A stretch of DNA of 10,707 nt from Candidatus Poseidoniaceae archaeon (GTDB taxonomy: Archaea > Thermoplasmatota > Poseidoniia > Poseidoniales > Poseidoniaceae): contig DUIP01000205.1 of assembly GCA_013330285.1 (NCBI GenBank), forward strand, positions 1 to 10,707. Reading direction: 5' to 3'. Below the pieces are notes generated by a model, which saw only the letters and a program-made list of their open reading frames with translations, had not been told where the DNA came from and searched no databases. Position numbers and translations under genes: made by a program. Of the stretch, positions 935 through 9,143 are shown one piece after another. Numbering within the stretch: the stretch's first letter is position 1; each line of letters starts with the position of its first letter.

Positions 935-1819
935 TCATTCCGAGGGGCCGTACAATAAATCCGGCAACTCTTGGTGCGCTTTCCACAGAAATGATTCGTC
1001 AATGCCTGCCTGAAGGAGTTGCTGAGTCCGTTTTGGAACTGTTTTAGGACCAAGTACTGCGCCTGGCCGCCTCAGATCGTCCATGTAATCGGTCTCAAGC
1101 AAGAAGCCGTGGCTCGATGATTCTGCGGTGGCAAGCACCTCTTCGATGGCGCCTTTCCCAATCAACACACTTGGTGTCACCCCTTGGGTAATGCTCGAAG
1201 TCAGTGTTGGAGGAGCGTAATGTCGGACCAGTCGTTGCTTATCGAAGCCCACCTTATCTGCCATTTGTGCAAGGCTGGCATAGGTTGATTCTAATTCCCC
1301 CTCCACGTGCAACTGAAGCGTAATGCCCTCTCTTTTGGCCATGGCCATGGTCTCTTCTAACAAGAGATTCGATAGGTCCCAGACCCGGTCGCTCACAGGC
1401 CAGTGAGGCCGACCCACTTCACCCACTGCGTGTGCCTTTCCTTCGTGGACGAGTTCAACCGCCGCGTCAATGCTGTTGCGGTAATTGTCCATGGCGCGTT
1501 CTGCACCTGATTCACCATCCTCATTCAACCAAGCCTCAAACTGATGGGCAAAGGCTGCCGGGTGAGGCCCTAAGACAACACGTACTCCAAGCCCATGCAC
1601 ATCACGAACTTCCGCTGCCATCGCCACCGTATCGTTGTAGGTCGCTAGATGACCTTCCCTTGTCGTTGGGGGTGATTGGAAATCAGGACAGTGTACAAGG
1701 ATAAGATCGGTTCCACCCGCTCGCTTAAACTCGCCAGCTGCTTGAAGAAAGAGGCCTTGACGATTAAGGTGGAAATGATTGTCCACGATTGGACCATTCC
1801 ATTGCTGAACAGAACTCAA
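935..1819 (-). CDS. TatD-related TIM-barrel metal-dependent hydrolase
   Basis: A predicted amidohydrolase-superfamily enzyme of the TatD type, in its archaeal branch (COG1099-like). Numbered from the start at 1819 (294 residues), all expected metal ligands are present in order: His15 and His17 in VDNHFHLN, Glu134 in GEVGRPH, His171 in LQLHVEG, His200 in RHYAPP and Asp244 in ETDYMDD. A GPHP segment (His86) matches the GxHP of the family. The ending RPGAVLGPKTVPKRT is typical of the archaeal group. Some TatD proteins are Mg-dependent DNases, but the substrate of the archaeal branch is not settled, so I call only a metal-dependent hydrolase. The longest frame begins at TTG 1825, directly abutting a GAGGG at 1826-1830. 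TTG 1819 has better spacing (6 bases) and was chosen. It lies about 60 bases downstream of the TBP-like gene. Cytoplasmic: no signal peptide. Confidence 0.85.
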   Translation of the reverse strand: MSSVQQWNGPIVDNHFHLNRQGLFLQAAGEFKRAGGTDLILVHCPDFQSPPTTREGHLATYNDTVAMAAEVRDVHGLGVRVVLGPHPAAFAHQFEAWLNEDGESGAERAMDNYRNSIDAAVELVHEGKAHAVGEVGRPHWPVSDRVWDLSNLLLEETMAMAKREGITLQLHVEGELESTYASLAQMADKVGFDKQRLVRHYAPPTLTSSITQGVTPSVLIGKGAIEEVLATAESSSHGFLLETDYMDDLRRPGAVLGPKTVPKRTQQLLQAGIDESFLWKAHQELPDLLYGPSE

Positions 1820-1825
1820 AGCCAA

Positions 1826-1879: not shown

Positions 1880-2422
1880 TCAAATGCGCTCAATCAAGAG
1901 GTTCTTGTCGCTAAACCGCCCTTTCCAATAGACTGCAGCCATAGCAACCATGTTTCGATGGCGTGCATCGGTGGCTACACATCGTCCATTTGGCCACATG
2001 TGGAGGGTGAGATTATGGCGAGAATCTTCGATGATGGTGCAGCCCAATCGTTCGTCAAAGGTGGCGGTTCCAGCACCGAAATCACCTACAACGTTCTCGA
2101 CAAGGAGCGCTTGGCCAAATTCGAATGAAGCAACAACGGGGCCGAGTTCAGTCTCAAGACCAGCGTCATCACGCCCAAGACGGAGCATGAGTTCCTTTGC
2201 AGCCGCTCGAGCAGCTTCGACTCGATGTGTGCCATGGACCACAATTCGACCCTCTTGGTCGATGACGATCGTTGCACGTGGTCGGTCAAGGACTTTGATG
2301 ACCACCCCCCCAGTTTGTTGACCACCAAGTTGGGCCACGACGGCATCTTGGTCGACGGGACGAGGAGGGACGAAGCGAACCAGTTGATTTTCGATTCGTA
2401 CATCGATTGCGCTTGCCACCAT
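1880..2422 (-). CDS. Divergent TATA-binding-protein-fold protein
   Basis: A 180-residue protein with the two-repeat layout and size of archaeal TBP. By eye, repeat 1 (residues 6-83) follows the TBP pattern: IDVRIEN at the start, then GGVVIKVLDRPRATIVI, the turn DQEGRIVVHGT and a helix EAARAAAKELMLRLG, matching FPG..., FSSGKxVxTGAKS and the repeat helix of canonical TBP. Repeat 2 (104-168) is more diverged (GQALLVENVVG, then MWPNGRCVATDAR and a helix). The Phe pair that wedges into TATA DNA appears replaced by Thr37 and Asp55 in repeat 1 and by Leu126 and Trp143 in repeat 2. This suggests a paralogue not acting as the general initiation factor: it might bind DNA differently, or bind protein or another ligand. 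The chosen ATG has AGGAGG 7 bases upstream. GTG 2428, which overlaps the upstream stop, lies only 1 base from that site and is less likely. Confidence 0.6.
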   Translation of the reverse strand: MVASAIDVRIENQLVRFVPPRPVDQDAVVAQLGGQQTGGVVIKVLDRPRATIVIDQEGRIVVHGTHRVEAARAAAKELMLRLGRDDAGLETELGPVVASFEFGQALLVENVVGDFGAGTATFDERLGCTIIEDSRHNLTLHMWPNGRCVATDARHRNMVAMAAVYWKGRFSDKNLLIERI

Positions 2423-2424
2423 GC

Positions 2425-3246
2425 TCACTCCTCCTCTGTGTCGGCCGTGTCGGTTGTGTTTGAAGTAATCTCCTCTGGTTCTGGAAGAGATTCAAGCGCC
2501 GCAAGAACGGCATTTCTGTGAGGTAAAAACAATGGTAGAAGCAACACTGCGTCGCTTCCATGAGTGATTCGTAAGTCCGCCAGTGCACCTCTTAACCGCT
2601 CTGCATACCTTTGGTCACGTGCTTCAACCACAGGTTCACCGACGATCCACTCATTGAGGTCCCACCATGTGGTCGACAGTACGGCTGCAGAACCAAAATT
2701 TGGTGATACTCCTTTTGGTGGTTTTTGAGCAAGGAAGATGTTTTTCTTGACTCGCTTTCGCCACTTCCCACCCAAGGAAATCATACCAAGCAATTTTTTC
2801 CAATGGGACGCTGCTTTGGCCTCATTGGTCAAGTGTTCACTCCACCTCTCATCATCGGCAGTGGGTTCGACAAAATACACCGGACGTTGGTGTCGTTCTG
2901 CATTCCTATGCAATCTTCGGGGTTCCGGATCTGGAAAACGGCCGGATGTCACATCCTCAACGAGTGATATTTCATCGAGATAAATGGCCATAGCTCCACC
3001 AGAGATCAAGCCGTGAGCAAGGTTCACTCCCGGTGACTCTGCTTCGTCTTTTTCCTCTTGGACCCACATGTCGACAACATCGGGTGCTTCCAAAAGTGCA
3101 AGACCGTGCCATTCGATTCGAGGACGCATCGAACGAGGGTAAACCACGGTTGGAAGGACGCCGTGAAGGATGATTTGGCCTCCATCAGGGTCGGACCACG
3201 TGTGGTCAGCCCAATCCAGTCGCTCTGGCAAAAGAGCCACGCTCAC
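2425..3246 (-). CDS. Conserved-looking protein of unknown function, possibly TraB-like
   Basis: I do not recognise this 273-residue protein with confidence. There is no signal peptide or membrane helix, so it should be cytoplasmic. The N-terminal half is mixed alpha/beta (IILHGVLPTVVYP, ALLEAPDVVDMWVQEE, GGAMAIYLDEIS). A basic stretch follows at about 149-175 (WKKLL, KWRKRVKKN), then FGSAAVLSTTWWDLNEW, and the end is acidic and disordered (PEPEE, DTEEE). The order of three elements recalls the TraB/PrgY superfamily: APDVV in place of the 'PDvVavEL' strand, EARDQRYAERL in place of 'ERDxxMaxxL', and LLLPLFLPHRNAVLAAL in place of the 'VvGxgHxxGi' strand. This is only a by-eye likeness. Start GTG 3246 overlaps the surface gene's TGA (GTGA) and has no Shine-Dalgarno of its own, indicating coupled translation. 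The stop is 2 bases before the TBP-like start. Confidence 0.8.
   Translation of the reverse strand: MSVALLPERLDWADHTWSDPDGGQIILHGVLPTVVYPRSMRPRIEWHGLALLEAPDVVDMWVQEEKDEAESPGVNLAHGLISGGAMAIYLDEISLVEDVTSGRFPDPEPRRLHRNAERHQRPVYFVEPTADDERWSEHLTNEAKAASHWKKLLGMISLGGKWRKRVKKNIFLAQKPPKGVSPNFGSAAVLSTTWWDLNEWIVGEPVVEARDQRYAERLRGALADLRITHGSDAVLLLPLFLPHRNAVLAALESLPEPEEITSNTTDTADTEEE
2430..2435 (-). promoter_or_regulatory. Strong Shine-Dalgarno AGGAGG deciding the TBP-like start
   Basis: AGGAGG on the minus strand, 7 bases before ATG 2422. It lies inside the Glu-Glu-Glu codons that end the upstream gene, so ribosomes finishing that gene pass straight onto it. The spacing supports ATG 2422 over GTG 2428. 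Confidence 0.75.
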
Positions 3247-6200
3247 TGTTCGTTAACCCAATCTTGGAGTGCTTGAACGCTCCATCCTTGGTCAAAGTAG
3301 CCTTGAATTTCTTCTTGACTCCATTGTGGGAACTTCGCCATTGCATCTGCCATTTCCGGAGATACATTTGCTGCAGGAGCAGGTGTTGATTGTCCTGGGA
3401 GTTCAACATAAGCCTTACTTGACTCATCTTCGTATTCATCGTCAGCAAACATGTCTTCACCATCGCCTCGGCGTACGAGAACGAAAACAACAACACCAAG
3501 GATGGCGACAATGGTGATCAAAGCCACAAGAATGAGCAAGACGGTCGTTCCATCGTCCGATTCACTCTGTACCTTGACGTTGAATTGTTCACCTTCTGCT
3601 GAACCATTGTACAAGAGTTCGTTTGTGGTGTCATCGGAGATGAGGTAGTACATTCCAGTCGTTGCTTGGGTAAATTCTGTCAATTCAATCGTGACCCATT
3701 TCTTGTCAAGAATATTGATGTCGCCAGTTTCGACGGTTCCTTCGAGCACTGGAACACCACCTGCGGTGACGGAGCGCACCGAAAGGGTGGTTCCACCAGC
3801 CATTGTTCCGTCATTACGAACTTCGATTTGGAGTTCCATAGATTCGCCGACTTCTGGTGAAGAAGGTGTCAAGATTGTGTTTTCAACAGCAAAACTTGGT
3901 TCCTCGTGGATGAAACGGTAGTTCGACTTGTGTTCTTCTGAACTGGAGAAGATTGCTGCAATGCCGCCTTCTTCAGTGGGCCCACCACCAAAGATGACGC
4001 CGGCTCCTGCAGAGTCCTTCGCATCGATCCACATGACGAGTTCGACATTGTTGATCTGTTCTTCATCAGGCTCAAATTGGCCCTCTTCCAACGGCCACAA
4101 ATCAATGCAAGATGCGGAGGCAGCGTAGGAGCCGCCAAGCGGTGAAAGGGTCAATTCTGCCATCATTGGTTCGTCACCAAACGACGTTCGGTAAATCGGC
4201 CAGAGAATGTCATTGCTCGCATCGGAGTAGAAGGCCCAAGCCACATTGACATCACCTTGGAAGAGTGCTTCACGTTCCTTGAGAACCACTTCAACATCGA
4301 CACAGTGGTAGGTCGAGGTTGGCATGTCGCCTGAGATGACCTCACCGGTTGCACCGCGCTTAGCAGTCCAGGAATCGGTGTTGACTTCAGGAGGGTTGCC
4401 ATCGACCTTGATGTTGAATGTCGAACAGCCATACGAACTCGAACCAGCGCACACTGCTGGCGTGGTATCGACGGCCCCTTCAGGGAGGCCCGTTTGATCA
4501 TTGCCACAGGAAATGGCATCGTCGAGAGCAGTGGTTGGATCATCGAATGGGCACAAACGGAACGAATATTGGTAATCGTTGGCAACCGGTGCTGCTGTGA
4601 GGTTGATTTCAAAGACACCACCAGTGAATGTATGGTAAGTCACTTCGCCCGGGAATGGAACGTATCCTTTCGCGCCATCAGCAAAAGCGGCCGACCTCGT
4701 AATCTCGAGGGTGAGAGGGATCTCTGGAGTGATGAACACGTTGTTGTTGATTCCGTCTAAGTAAGCGTATTGACCGTGGAAGGCAATGGTGTCACCGGGG
4801 TAAACGAAGCCTTTGCGTACATCTTCTGTTTGTGGTTCAGAGAGATCTTCAAACACTGGTGTAACCATGAGATCGTTGACTTCATCAGTTCGGAAGTCAA
4901 GTTGGATACCGTCGCTGTAGTACCAGTCTTGGATGTGCCTTCCTGGGGCAGGAAGCATTCGGTACCTTGGGTTGTCAAGGTCTTGCATGTAGAGCACAGG
5001 ATTGTTGAGTGCAGTGGTCGCACCGAGCACACCCCAATCGATTCGAATTGGTAGATCAAGCATGAAGTCCGCTTCGAACGGATCGATCAGTGCGCCACCA
5101 TCCATTCGCAGCATGCGCGGTCCATCTGAAACTTCACTTTCTTCGAGGATTGTAATCCAAGGCGAGTCGGTCCAAGCGGATTGGTTTCGAGGGTAGTAGT
5201 AGACGTTCATGTCGTCACGGTCATCCGCAAGATCGATGTGGAAGTACGAGATATCTCGCCATCCATTGTCATCATTAGCTTCGACAACCAATGAGTATTG
5301 GTTGCCAGCGTACATGGTTTGATTCCATTTTCCATCATACTGAGGCTGGTTCGAGTTAAGGAAACGACCGTCCTTTGAATCATCGATGAAGAAGTTTCGA
5401 ATGACTGGAGACTTCGAGTTCATGGAGACATAGGTGAAGTGATCGTTTTCAAATCCAGGTGCGCCTCCATCAATCGGGTTTCCTGCAAGGTCGTAGCCTT
5501 CAATCCAAACTGAGACTTTGCCGACAGGGTCTGCACCAATGTTGGCCATATCACTGAAGCTTCCAGAGTAGTTTGCGAACGGTGCTTCGCCATCGTCATT
5601 GACTGTGACGGTGATGTATTCGCTCGCATCTGCAATGCCGTCACCATTTGTATCGTGATCGTTTTCGACCCAGATCTTGATGTCAAGGGTTGCTGGTGGA
5701 TTTGGCAAATCGTAAGCGCTGAGACGGATTTGTTGGTTGGCAGATGGCACAACCCATGTGTCATCGACCATTGTCCTCCAATTGCTTTCCAATGACGGGT
5801 CAACTTGACCGTTGAGGATTTTTACATTGAGCAGGCTCGGGTCGAGTGTGTCGATGGAGAGGTTGAACGGAATGGCACAGTCGCTGTCTGGGCGGTATAT
5901 TGCTGCAGGGCACAACGTGTCGCCGCCTTCGTAGCCGTCAATTCGGAACCTGTAGGTTTCATCACCTGCTGCAAAGCCAAGATCGATGTTGAGGTCAAAG
6001 TCGCCACCAATCACACCCGATTGGTTGTCAACGCTGACCCATTCGACCGAGAAGTTCTCATCGGATGTGTTGATTGTCTTCTGCTCTAAAACCATGTAAT
6101 ATCGGCTTGGGTCAGGGGAAATGTCGAGGTTCTCAAGTCGGATGCTACCAGCGATGTTCACGATTTGATTGGATTTACCATTGTCCAAATCTTGAGCAAG

Positions 6201-9143
6201 ACCAATGTCATTTCGAACTTCGAAGTTGGTAATCATTGCATCGTTCTCGACAGCATTGCCGCCAGGTGGAGCAAGTAGAACTGCCGATGGAAGCCCATTG
6301 ACACCATTTGCTGCAAGCAGGCCGGAATAGATGCGAACTTCATCGGTATCCTCCCAATATGAGTTGACGATGAATCGCCAGGTGATTTGTTTTCCATCGG
6401 TGATGTCAGATTGCATCGAGGTGGATTCAAGCGTAATTAAATCGTTGACGTCTGAAGCCTCAGCAAAGCCCATCGCATCAGAATACGAAAGCACGACTGT
6501 ACCAGTATTGGATTCAAGAGTCAAACGACTCTCAACCAAAGATGAGGTGGTCGATGCCGCAACGGTGTGAGTGGTCACGACCTCATACAGTTGTCCGTTT
6601 GGATAGAATCCGACCGGGTTTCCGGTCAAACTGAGTGTGTTGTCATACCCGCTTGCTGTGACAACAGCGAGGTTGGAGAAGGTCAATCCTCCTCCACTTG
6701 TCGAGGTTACAGCCACTTCAACATTGGCCATTGATCCACCAGTCCAAAGGGCTACACCCTTGTTCAACTCAAGGTCAAGGCCATCAGAATTGTCGAGTGT
6801 GGTTGTGAAATTGTAGATGACATCGAGGTCTCGAATCACCATTGTGGCACCAGTTTCGGAACTTGGTGAATCCGCCTTGAAGCGGAACGTCATCCATTCG
6901 TTTCCATAGGCATCGACATGGCTCACTGGGACAAGTGGGTTGTTCAGCAACGAGTTCAATGCGGTGGTAAGGTCTGTTGATGAGAGGTATTCAGGGAGCG
7001 CTCGTGTGATGTTTTCGATGGCTCCAAGGCTTTCTTCCTGGGTTCCTGAAAGAACTGAGAAATTGAATCCTTCCATTGGATCGGTGCTTGAATGGATCAT
7101 CACTTCGTCAAGGACAAAATCAGAAGAGAGAACGACTGCACCCTTGGGAAGCATGAAGTTTCCACCTTCTGCAACACCTGTCAAATCGGTGCTGATGTTT
7201 GCGGAGTCTGTACCGTAATTGATTCCGTCAATCTTGTTGAGCAAGAAATTTGTTTGGCGGCCAAATGAACCAAATGCTGGCTCATCAAAGCCCCAGTCGA
7301 CGTTTGAATCATTAGCGACATCAACTTGGAAATTGTCGGCGTGGTGACCGAAGTGAAGGTCAAACCATAGACCTGCAACGTTACAGTTGTTTTGATAGGA
7401 CATCATTGATTCAAAGCCAAAGATTGGAGCATCGAGGACATACTCCGTGTCTGGAATCATACCAACCAATCCGTTGCCACCATACCCTTGAAGATCGATG
7501 GAAGGTATTTCGCTACAGTCGTCTTGGACGTGGGCTGTAATTCGAGTGATCGGTTTCGAGAAGCTGCTTCGTTGGAGGGCAGGATTGTACGAATTATCCG
7601 TCAGCAATGGAGAATAGGTCATCGGCTCTCCGCCTCCGGCCTCCCAGACACCATTGATGACGCCCGTGGTCATCTCATCGGTTTGATTGAAGCCGGTTCC
7701 GACACGCGTACCAATGCTAAATCCATGGAAAACTGGGCTCGAAAGTCGAGAAGAACCTGAATCAAAACTCATCCTAAAATTAACAGAGGGGTATTCTGTG
7801 GAATTGATCTCCCACAACTCGATGATTTTACCTTGCAAGCCAACCATTGGGTTGCCATGGTTGTCGATGACAGTCAGGCCTGTTGCAGAATCGATGACTT
7901 CAAGCGAAAGGGTGGCTGAAGAAGTGGTTTCGGATTCGATGGTGAGGATACCATAGCCGTTTGGTTGATTGTCACCACTTTGAACCGATGGGAGGAAACC
8001 ATTGATGTCCATGGTTGCTGTTTGAGGCAATCGGTCGCCGACTCGGAAGTTGTCGATGTACCAACCGGCTGCGCCGCCATCAGAGCCGGAGATGTCGTTG
8101 TCGTCCAAGACAAACCGAAGTTGAATGTACTGTCCGACGTATTGAATCAGGTCAATCGCAATGTTGGCCCAACCAGTAGGATTTCCAGTGCTGACTGAGG
8201 TGCCGCCAAGAGCGTAGTCACCTGATGGAACTTGGTTGCATTGGTTGTAGATTTCACCAGCATTGTTTGAGCCGGTGCTGACCCGGTAGTAGCCGTTTGA
8301 ATAGCCTACGCCAGTCGAATTACCAATGTCGATATCGATGTATTGGAAGCCAGAAGCATCCGGTGGGAACACGCCGTTACTGGAGGTTCGAATCTGAACG
8401 TAAGCACAGTCGGTGTACTTGATTGCAGGGTTTGTACCGCCGGGCGTAATGCGGTCAAGATCGTGATAGGAGTCAAAGTAGGCGGTGGTATCTTTCAGAG
8501 CAAGATCGATGTACATCGAGGGGGAATGGAGGGCATAGGTAAATCCGTAGTTGTTGCCTTGATTGTAGTCGTTGTCGGTGTAATCATTGTCGTTCAGACC
8601 TGTTCCCCAGCAGTATGTGCCAGAGTAGCAATCAGGGACGCCAGGAGGTGCTGGTCCACCTTGTCCGCTGGTTTCGCCGTGGTCAAAACCATACCACTTT
8701 TGATAGAAATCCCGCTGATCGACGAAACCACCCATGGTTTCTTCGAAATCGGTAAGGTATCCTTCTGCAGTTAACGAGACTGGTGTTGCAGTAGCACCGT
8801 CTTCGAAAGTAAAATGAGACTGGTTAGAGAACTTCGTAAGTTGATTGTTATAGCTCGGGTTCCAAACCCTCGACATGGTTTCAGTGTCGATTCGCTGGTG
8901 AGCAGCATGTTCAACCATGTTGACTGAGAGATCCATACTTGCGCTTGTCACCGTATCACCTGCTGGCAAATCGATACTGCCACTGTCTCGGTCCAAAAAG
9001 GCAGCACCATCACGCATTTCGATGTCTGCTTCAGTATCTTGGTTAGCGAATGTTGTCACGTTGGCAGCACCCGCAAACGGGGCTAAAACCATCAATGCGA
9101 CAAGGAACAATGGGGCTCTCAAACTTCGGTTATCGTGTGTCAT
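3243..9143 (-). CDS. Giant secreted, C-terminally membrane-anchored surface protein (1966 residues)
   Basis: A type I membrane protein of the cell surface. Residues 1-26 form a signal peptide (basic start, core APLFLVALMVLAPFAGA). About 132-370 is a jelly-roll or MAM-like module ending in GWYIDNFRVG (360-369). The long middle is beta-rich, acidic and rich in Asn-X-Ser/Thr sequons, and contains a calcium-loop-like DTNGDGIAD (1164-1172). About 1749-1845 resembles CARDB (PSFAVENTI..., IEVRNDGTMAGGTTLSV). A single membrane helix spans about 1866-1890, followed by RR, an acidic linker and a Trp-rich tail (1938-1966). I count 14 Cys, all outside, several closely spaced, which suggests disulfides. 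No protease or glycosidase catalytic motif was found, so an adhesive, binding or envelope role is more likely than an enzymatic one. ATG 9143 has AGGTGA 4 bases upstream. It is the first gene of the minus-strand unit. Confidence 0.93.
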   Translation of the reverse strand: MTHDNRSLRAPLFLVALMVLAPFAGAANVTTFANQDTEADIEMRDGAAFLDRDSGSIDLPAGDTVTSASMDLSVNMVEHAAHQRIDTETMSRVWNPSYNNQLTKFSNQSHFTFEDGATATPVSLTAEGYLTDFEETMGGFVDQRDFYQKWYGFDHGETSGQGGPAPPGVPDCYSGTYCWGTGLNDNDYTDNDYNQGNNYGFTYALHSPSMYIDLALKDTTAYFDSYHDLDRITPGGTNPAIKYTDCAYVQIRTSSNGVFPPDASGFQYIDIDIGNSTGVGYSNGYYRVSTGSNNAGEIYNQCNQVPSGDYALGGTSVSTGNPTGWANIAIDLIQYVGQYIQLRFVLDDNDISGSDGGAAGWYIDNFRVGDRLPQTATMDINGFLPSVQSGDNQPNGYGILTIESETTSSATLSLEVIDSATGLTVIDNHGNPMVGLQGKIIELWEINSTEYPSVNFRMSFDSGSSRLSSPVFHGFSIGTRVGTGFNQTDEMTTGVINGVWEAGGGEPMTYSPLLTDNSYNPALQRSSFSKPITRITAHVQDDCSEIPSIDLQGYGGNGLVGMIPDTEYVLDAPIFGFESMMSYQNNCNVAGLWFDLHFGHHADNFQVDVANDSNVDWGFDEPAFGSFGRQTNFLLNKIDGINYGTDSANISTDLTGVAEGGNFMLPKGAVVLSSDFVLDEVMIHSSTDPMEGFNFSVLSGTQEESLGAIENITRALPEYLSSTDLTTALNSLLNNPLVPVSHVDAYGNEWMTFRFKADSPSSETGATMVIRDLDVIYNFTTTLDNSDGLDLELNKGVALWTGGSMANVEVAVTSTSGGGLTFSNLAVVTASGYDNTLSLTGNPVGFYPNGQLYEVVTTHTVAASTTSSLVESRLTLESNTGTVVLSYSDAMGFAEASDVNDLITLESTSMQSDITDGKQITWRFIVNSYWEDTDEVRIYSGLLAANGVNGLPSAVLLAPPGGNAVENDAMITNFEVRNDIGLAQDLDNGKSNQIVNIAGSIRLENLDISPDPSRYYMVLEQKTINTSDENFSVEWVSVDNQSGVIGGDFDLNIDLGFAAGDETYRFRIDGYEGGDTLCPAAIYRPDSDCAIPFNLSIDTLDPSLLNVKILNGQVDPSLESNWRTMVDDTWVVPSANQQIRLSAYDLPNPPATLDIKIWVENDHDTNGDGIADASEYITVTVNDDGEAPFANYSGSFSDMANIGADPVGKVSVWIEGYDLAGNPIDGGAPGFENDHFTYVSMNSKSPVIRNFFIDDSKDGRFLNSNQPQYDGKWNQTMYAGNQYSLVVEANDDNGWRDISYFHIDLADDRDDMNVYYYPRNQSAWTDSPWITILEESEVSDGPRMLRMDGGALIDPFEADFMLDLPIRIDWGVLGATTALNNPVLYMQDLDNPRYRMLPAPGRHIQDWYYSDGIQLDFRTDEVNDLMVTPVFEDLSEPQTEDVRKGFVYPGDTIAFHGQYAYLDGINNNVFITPEIPLTLEITRSAAFADGAKGYVPFPGEVTYHTFTGGVFEINLTAAPVANDYQYSFRLCPFDDPTTALDDAISCGNDQTGLPEGAVDTTPAVCAGSSSYGCSTFNIKVDGNPPEVNTDSWTAKRGATGEVISGDMPTSTYHCVDVEVVLKEREALFQGDVNVAWAFYSDASNDILWPIYRTSFGDEPMMAELTLSPLGGSYAASASCIDLWPLEEGQFEPDEEQINNVELVMWIDAKDSAGAGVIFGGGPTEEGGIAAIFSSSEEHKSNYRFIHEEPSFAVENTILTPSSPEVGESMELQIEVRNDGTMAGGTTLSVRSVTAGGVPVLEGTVETGDINILDKKWVTIELTEFTQATTGMYYLISDDTTNELLYNGSAEGEQFNVKVQSESDDGTTVLLILVALITIVAILGVVVFVLVRRGDGEDMFADDEYEDESSKAYVELPGQSTPAPAANVSPEMADAMAKFPQWSQEEIQGYFDQGWSVQALQDWVNEQ
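3246..3332 (-). other. Trp-rich cytoplasmic C-terminal tail motif of the surface protein
   Basis: Codes for the last 29 residues, beginning FPQWSQEEIQGYFDQGW and ending LQDWVNEQ. It has three Trp and two Phe in an amphipathic helical pattern and is separated from the membrane helix by an acidic, Pro/Ala-rich linker. From memory, many large membrane proteins of Marine Group II archaea end in a similar W-S-x-E-x-I-x-x-Y-F-D-x-G-W pattern. It may be a small docking domain for a shared cytoplasmic partner. Confidence 0.6.
3474..3548 (-). other. Single transmembrane helix of the surface protein
   Basis: Codes for residues 1866-1890, an uninterrupted hydrophobic run (VLLILVALITIVAILGVVV) followed at once by Arg-Arg. 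The flanking charges (acidic SESDDG outside, RR inside) fit an extracellular N-terminus and a cytoplasmic tail. Confidence 0.9.

Follow-up and report, generated by a model that had tools for sequence, protein, structure and literature searches.

The window, that is, the whole stretch of 10,707 nucleotides analyzed, from a Poseidoniaceae archaeon, encodes a TBP-like protein (TBPL, a label used here for the protein of positions 1880..2422 and for its family) that has the fold of the TATA-binding protein and, judging from its sequence, probably serves some purpose besides the usual binding to promoters. Among archaeal and eukaryotic proteins, TBP usually ranks as one of the most tightly constrained. 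In the order-wide TBPL family, the saddle is conserved but the DNA-kinking chemistry is not, and N.L5.1, which PMC7221094 describes as a universally conserved Phe position, has become fixed as an acidic residue. The family can be viewed as a natural experiment on the capabilities of a TBP fold that lacks the Phe wedges. No publication on the TBPL family was found among the matches listed (titles and openings of abstracts), which is no proof of its being unpublished. The gene and its neighbors in the window are as follows.

935..1825, minus strand: TatD-related metallohydrolase downstream of TBPL (Pfam PF01026, E 2.1e-23)
1880..2422, minus strand: TBPL, the TBP-like gene, 180 aa, with a TBP fold according to prediction and profile alignment
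2425..3246, minus strand: p273, an order-specific orphan directly upstream of TBPL, with 2 nt between the p273 stop and the TBPL ATG
3243..9143, minus strand: predicted surface protein of 1966 aa, upstream of p273, an inconstant member of the cluster

Fold and intercalating residues of TBPL

The first-pass annotation had assigned the TBP fold to this protein by eye, an assignment that profile alignment bears out. In the hhalign comparison PHENYLALANINES, 83 TBPL sequences (54 from family f1 and 29 from family f2, which are the rows used for the residue counts) align with 56 TBP sequences with a prob of 97.5 and an E-value of 8.8e-12 over the full length, and the two-repeat saddle characteristic of the TBP superfamily is predicted for the entire TBPL chain. 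This full-length saddle is common to TBPL and canonical archaeal TBP (PF00352, e.g., 1mp9), as is, for f1 members, the Glu-Asn motif of S1 (IENVVAST in canonical TBP and IENQLVRF in TBPL). The identity to solved TBPs is 15-20%, and it is ~16% to Sulfolobus acidocaldarius TBP (1mp9). In TBPL, other residues stand in place of all four intercalating Phe of canonical TBP, of its repeat-1 Thr, and of its repeat-2 Asn, and the TBPL sequences form a separate clade. The minor-groove contacts of TBP involve Asn in both repeats and Thr in repeat 1. The codons at the corresponding sites in the window are given below.

2309..2314, minus strand: T37-G38, site of the first intercalating Phe of repeat 1 (which we take to be yeast F99), from hhalign with a one-residue alignment ambiguity
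2258..2260, minus strand: D55, site of the second intercalating Phe of repeat 1 (F116, N.L5.1), from hhalign
2234..2236, minus strand: H63, site of the repeat-1 minor-groove Thr (presumably yeast T124, with that role), His in 82/83 rows
2045..2047, minus strand: L126, site of the first Phe of repeat 2 (presumably yeast F190), from hhalign
1994..1996, minus strand: W143, site of the second Phe of repeat 2 (C.L5.1; which we take to be yeast F207), from hhalign

The canonical F2, F3, and F4 positions correspond to D55, L126, and W143 in the hhalign alignment, and Leu126 and Trp143 are thereby confirmed at the repeat-2 positions to which they had been assigned by eye. According to our reading of the alignment, the canonical F1 aligns with G38, or with T37 if an extra hairpin residue is gapped. 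The alignment leaves 0/4 of the Phe in the TBPL of the window, and the first-pass observation is confirmed. In this respect, TBPL differs from a TATA-binding protein proper, which has all four. The four Phe are present in 50 of the 56 comparison TBPs; the other six comprise one paralogue and five second TBPs of family f3, of which two are truncated.

The loss of the repeat-1 Phe pair and the presence of an acid at an intercalating position, both previously proposed for the single protein, hold throughout the family. Phe is found at residues 36-39, 55, or 126 in 0/83 TBPL rows, residue 37 in the 54 f1 rows being T (34), N (18), A (1), or S (1). Residue 55 is acidic in 83/83 (D in 54/54 f1; D in 13 and E in 16 of the 29 f2). 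The description of the saddle as "half-preserved" stands at the family level for C.L5.1, where residue 143 is aromatic in 82/83 rows (W in 54/54 f1, F in 27/29 f2), but not for the other repeat-2 Phe, since residue 126 is L, I, or V in 83/83. The minor-groove set is also altered. In the comparison TBPs, the repeat-1 Asn is present in 53 (with three gaps), the repeat-2 Asn in 56 and the Thr in 56/56, while TBPL has His at residue 63, the Thr124 site, in all rows but one, and its repeat-2 Asn is replaced (P in 53/54 f1; P10, E8, D7, G2, and S2 in f2). The repeat-1 Asn of the S1 Glu-Asn pair (N12) is present in 54/54 f1 and in just 8/29 f2. TBPL lacks the full Asn/Asn/Thr set of a TATA-binding protein proper. 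Residue 16 is R in 80/83 rows.

The acidic pair C.L3.2/C.L3.4 in the C-lobe of TBP contacts TFB (PMC7221094). In TBPL, residue 123, which is near one of these contact positions, is D or E in 79/83 rows, and the second contact Glu falls in an alignment gap; one stirrup acid is kept, and the other may be missing.

The query TBPL and that of locus L004 are identical, and both are counted. Locus L057, at a contig edge, is absent from both residue counts. Locus L055, which has a broken frame, was left out of the 83-row counts and was included with an out-of-frame tail in an earlier 54-row count. In this locus (CM001443.1, a published MG-II chromosome, 8001-8390), the TBPL match ends near residue 130.

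Distribution, descent, and selection

TBPL is present in 248/292 genomes of a class-wide sample, with one match in 246 of these and two in G260 and G270. Among the class genomes with ≥90% completeness and ≤5% contamination, 35/38 carry it; G001, G003, and G005, which belong to family f3, fit the three good-quality genomes without TBPL. Of the 44 class genomes with no match, at least 20 are Poseidoniales that are 63-94% complete, and MAG incompleteness is a simpler reason for these 20 than decay of the gene. In the phylum sample (389 genomes for TBPL), a clear match is seen in 123/126 Poseidoniales, and one more, G050, which has no match in the class-wide sample, gives a weak one (E 0.003). TBPL was not found in the eight f3 genomes listed in the phylum sample. 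Outside the class, 22 genomes of this sample matched with hits of ≤32 bits, and 20 stretches fetched from 16 of them encode a TBP with all four Phe in 20/20 cases, one of the stretches (L152) having a paralogue besides.

A search for relatives outside the order with the most divergent f2 member gave 12 proteins, and both of the named ones are from Thalassarchaeaceae; for this reason, f2 is read as probably representing Thalassarchaeaceae. Where TBPL records state an order or family, they point to Poseidoniales, Poseidoniaceae, or Poseidonia; the others give just Euryarchaeota. A viral origin was considered and rejected, as no relative was confirmed among 21 pattern matches when viral contigs were scanned with the f1 alignment.

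In a tree of 46/83 TBPL and 44/56 TBP rows (the TBP rows dropped being ten near copies and two truncated sequences), TBPL forms a single clade with 100/100 support, separated by a long branch from every TBP included. The TBPL dN/dS values are 0.015-0.08 in the 13/15 pairs that gave a value; the ratios are rough, because 11 of these 13 pairs are saturated (dS >1); for the remaining two, which are not, the values are 0.015 and 0.068. With p273 included (9/10 pairs), values were obtained for 22/25 pairs, three being not computable; TatD had no pair. In the relatives tested, purifying selection acts on TBPL. The gene nearly always occurs in single copy. TBPL is an order-wide paralogue of TBP and may well be an old one.

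Gene neighborhood and canonical TBP

The order p273-TBPL-TatD is observed in 83/84 loci, and the exception is ended by a contig edge; p273 lies upstream of TBPL in 83/84 loci and TatD downstream in 84/84. The first-pass annotation had placed TBPL in an operon with a surface protein. In that form, the link finds no support: the surface protein is present in 51/54 loci of the first sets but in the short flanks of just 6/30 further loci (L082-L111, of which 29 are f2 and thus probably Thalassarchaeaceae), and it is p273 and TatD that flank TBPL throughout. In the 1966-aa surface protein, we recognize by eye a signal peptide and, toward the C terminus, a membrane segment with a short cytoplasmic tail.

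The range of p273 approximates that of TBPL: in a phylum sample of 378 genomes, 120/122 Poseidoniales match, and the single hit elsewhere scores 17.7 bits. On the basis of Pfam and the gene order in the 84 loci, none of the constant neighbors of TBPL is a known transcription gene. The 27 f1 sequences of p273 compared share an invariant PDPEP motif, and their C-terminal tail is acidic. For our reading of p273 as a TraB (TraB/EreA-like) protein, which came from its pattern, profiles gave no support.

The first-pass annotation had also asked whether the genome encodes a second, canonical TBP. A four-Phe TBP is encoded in the same genome, and 33/33 Poseidoniales tested contain a protein that matches canonical TBP strongly, with a best E-value of at most 1.5e-23. 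Viewed by eye, the canonical TBP of Poseidoniales (L001, on contig C59 of G000, and L117-L141) has an insert of ~20-65 residues early in repeat 2, which appears longer in most f2 members.

Possible uses of the TBPL fold

The reading that we favor, although at roughly even odds, is that TBPL is an exapted TBP fold, in which the saddle has been kept, the kinking of the TATA box has been given up and the protein works together with p273 and/or TatD. In this scenario, the concave face of repeat 1 would now be polar (R16, D/E55, and H63, each in at least 80/83 rows) and would bind a protein or undistorted nucleic acid instead of prying a TA step open, while the C-lobe side may still contact nucleic acid. 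The partner of TBPL would most likely be p273, the TatD hydrolase would act in the p273-TBPL pathway, and promoter recognition would fall to the cell's canonical TBP. Replacement of F116 (N.L5.1) with Ala is reported to reduce DNA binding by yeast and human TBP (PMC7221094), and because of this effect an Asp at N.L5.1 is expected to be at least as harmful. Counted in favor of an exapted fold are the loss of the Phe, the fixed acid, the altered minor-groove residues, the canonical TBP, the lone clade, the gene order, and the dN/dS values, together with the similar ranges of p273 and TBPL and the persistence of TBPL in genus g14 without TFB2, the divergent second TFB (see below). A tentative proposal, which we place somewhat short of even, is that Poseidoniales fixed a duplicated TBP outside promoter recognition, with a charged repeat-1 face, as one of the three proteins of a new unit that also includes p273 and TatD.

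Other data are counted against an exapted fold. The aromatic residue at C.L5.1, the N12 pair in f1, and the acid at residue 123 are kept, so that some DNA or TFB binding may survive. Moreover, gene adjacency is no proof of an interaction of TBPL with p273 or TatD, and TatD belongs to a generic family. Furthermore, PMC7221094 and PMC4230888 still consider a transcription-factor role for metazoan TBPL1 and haloarchaeal tbpC, which have changed Phe.

It is conceivable, although on the whole unlikely, that TBPL is an alternative basal factor that acts at another class of promoters, kinks the DNA on one side, and recruits TFB and RNA polymerase. Its homology to TBP is clear, and the retained C.L5.1 aromatic residue and C-terminal stirrup acid are in keeping with such a role. 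In addition, the genome with TBPL has both a canonical and a divergent TFB. The latter, TFB2, is present in 27/30 Poseidoniales tested, with 51-92% identity across them (in G000 it is L060, on contig C16); in most tested Poseidoniales, genes of the TBP type and of the TFB type are present in two copies each. The GRSI Arg is kept in 28/28 TFB2, whereas Thr at the VPRT position, which presumably corresponds to the TBP-contacting Thr of PMC7221094, is found in 2/28 TFB2 vs 18/18 TFB1-type sequences (14 from Poseidoniales and 4 from f3). An obligate TBPL-TFB2 pair looked attractive in view of the matched change in the VPRT Thr and the stirrup acid, but it is weakened by genus g14, where TFB2 was not found in 15/18 genomes and TBPL is present in 18/18. 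TFB2 is detectable in this genus, since three g14 genomes carry it with ~50% identity. Among the 15 g14 genomes without TFB2, TFB1 was found in 14, and the remaining one, G036, shows no TFB whatever, for which reason this MAG is probably incomplete at TFB. Therefore, TFB2 is unlikely to be an obligate partner of TBPL. The g14 data bear on TFB2 and not on TFB1; further points against an alternative basal factor are that the minor-groove Asn/Thr/Phe set is mostly changed and that neither of the constant neighbors, p273 and TatD, is known as a transcription gene.

A role in regulating canonical transcription, for instance as a decoy for TFB1 or as a pairing partner of TBP that binds no DNA, appears improbable to us. 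A protein that retains the fold and one acidic stirrup residue and has lost the TATA-binding residues could act in this manner, but the second TFB-contact Glu falls in the hhalign gap, and the cluster with p273 and TatD would be left unexplained. Even less can be said for TBPL as an ordinary TATA-binding TBP in which the substitutions are tolerated. Some database entries bear the name "TATA-box binding protein"; the absence of all four Phe in the TBPL of the window, the low identity to solved TBPs, and the canonical TBP present beside it make this very improbable, and the name is probably misleading. A decaying duplicate without function, to which the long branch and the at least 20 Poseidoniales genomes without a match might point (the latter having a simpler reason in MAG incompleteness), is for practical purposes refuted by the low dN/dS, the wide presence, the fixed residues, and the fixed gene order.

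The exapted fold can also be set beside known TBP paralogues. TRF2 is a synonym of metazoan TBPL1, which, like TBPL, is a paralogue with an altered residue at N.L5.1. It has Trp there (PMC7221094) and is eukaryotic, with another context, unlike TBPL, where this position is Asp or Glu in 83/83; the tree described above holds no eukaryotic sequences. Haloarchaeal tbpC resembles TBPL in that the N-terminal Phe pair is gone from a second TBP while other TBPs are present (PMC4230888). The tbpC group is mixed, the N-terminal pair being missing in 18/21, and its C-terminal pair is kept (PMC4230888); deletion of tbpC has no apparent phenotype (PMC2121645). Unlike tbpC, the TBPL of the window lacks both repeat-2 Phe (L126/W143), and the TBPL family has a fixed acid, fixed neighbors, and an order-wide range, the comparison being one of features.

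Closer at hand, the second TBP of f3, a sister family within the same class, is, like TBPL, a second TBP without the first repeat-1 Phe, which is T or N in three full-length sequences. Unlike TBPL, it keeps the other three Phe, lies at another genomic place, and does not join TBPL in the tree. Kinship between the two is accordingly unseen in the tree, although long branches leave the placement of TBPL unsure. The f3 second TBP (L146, L149, and L150) adjoins a gene that we read by eye as dph2. At locus L152 (G388, contig C1), two TBP genes are adjacent, and the second has the pattern Phe-Ile-Phe-Phe, with Ile at the second repeat-1 Phe position.
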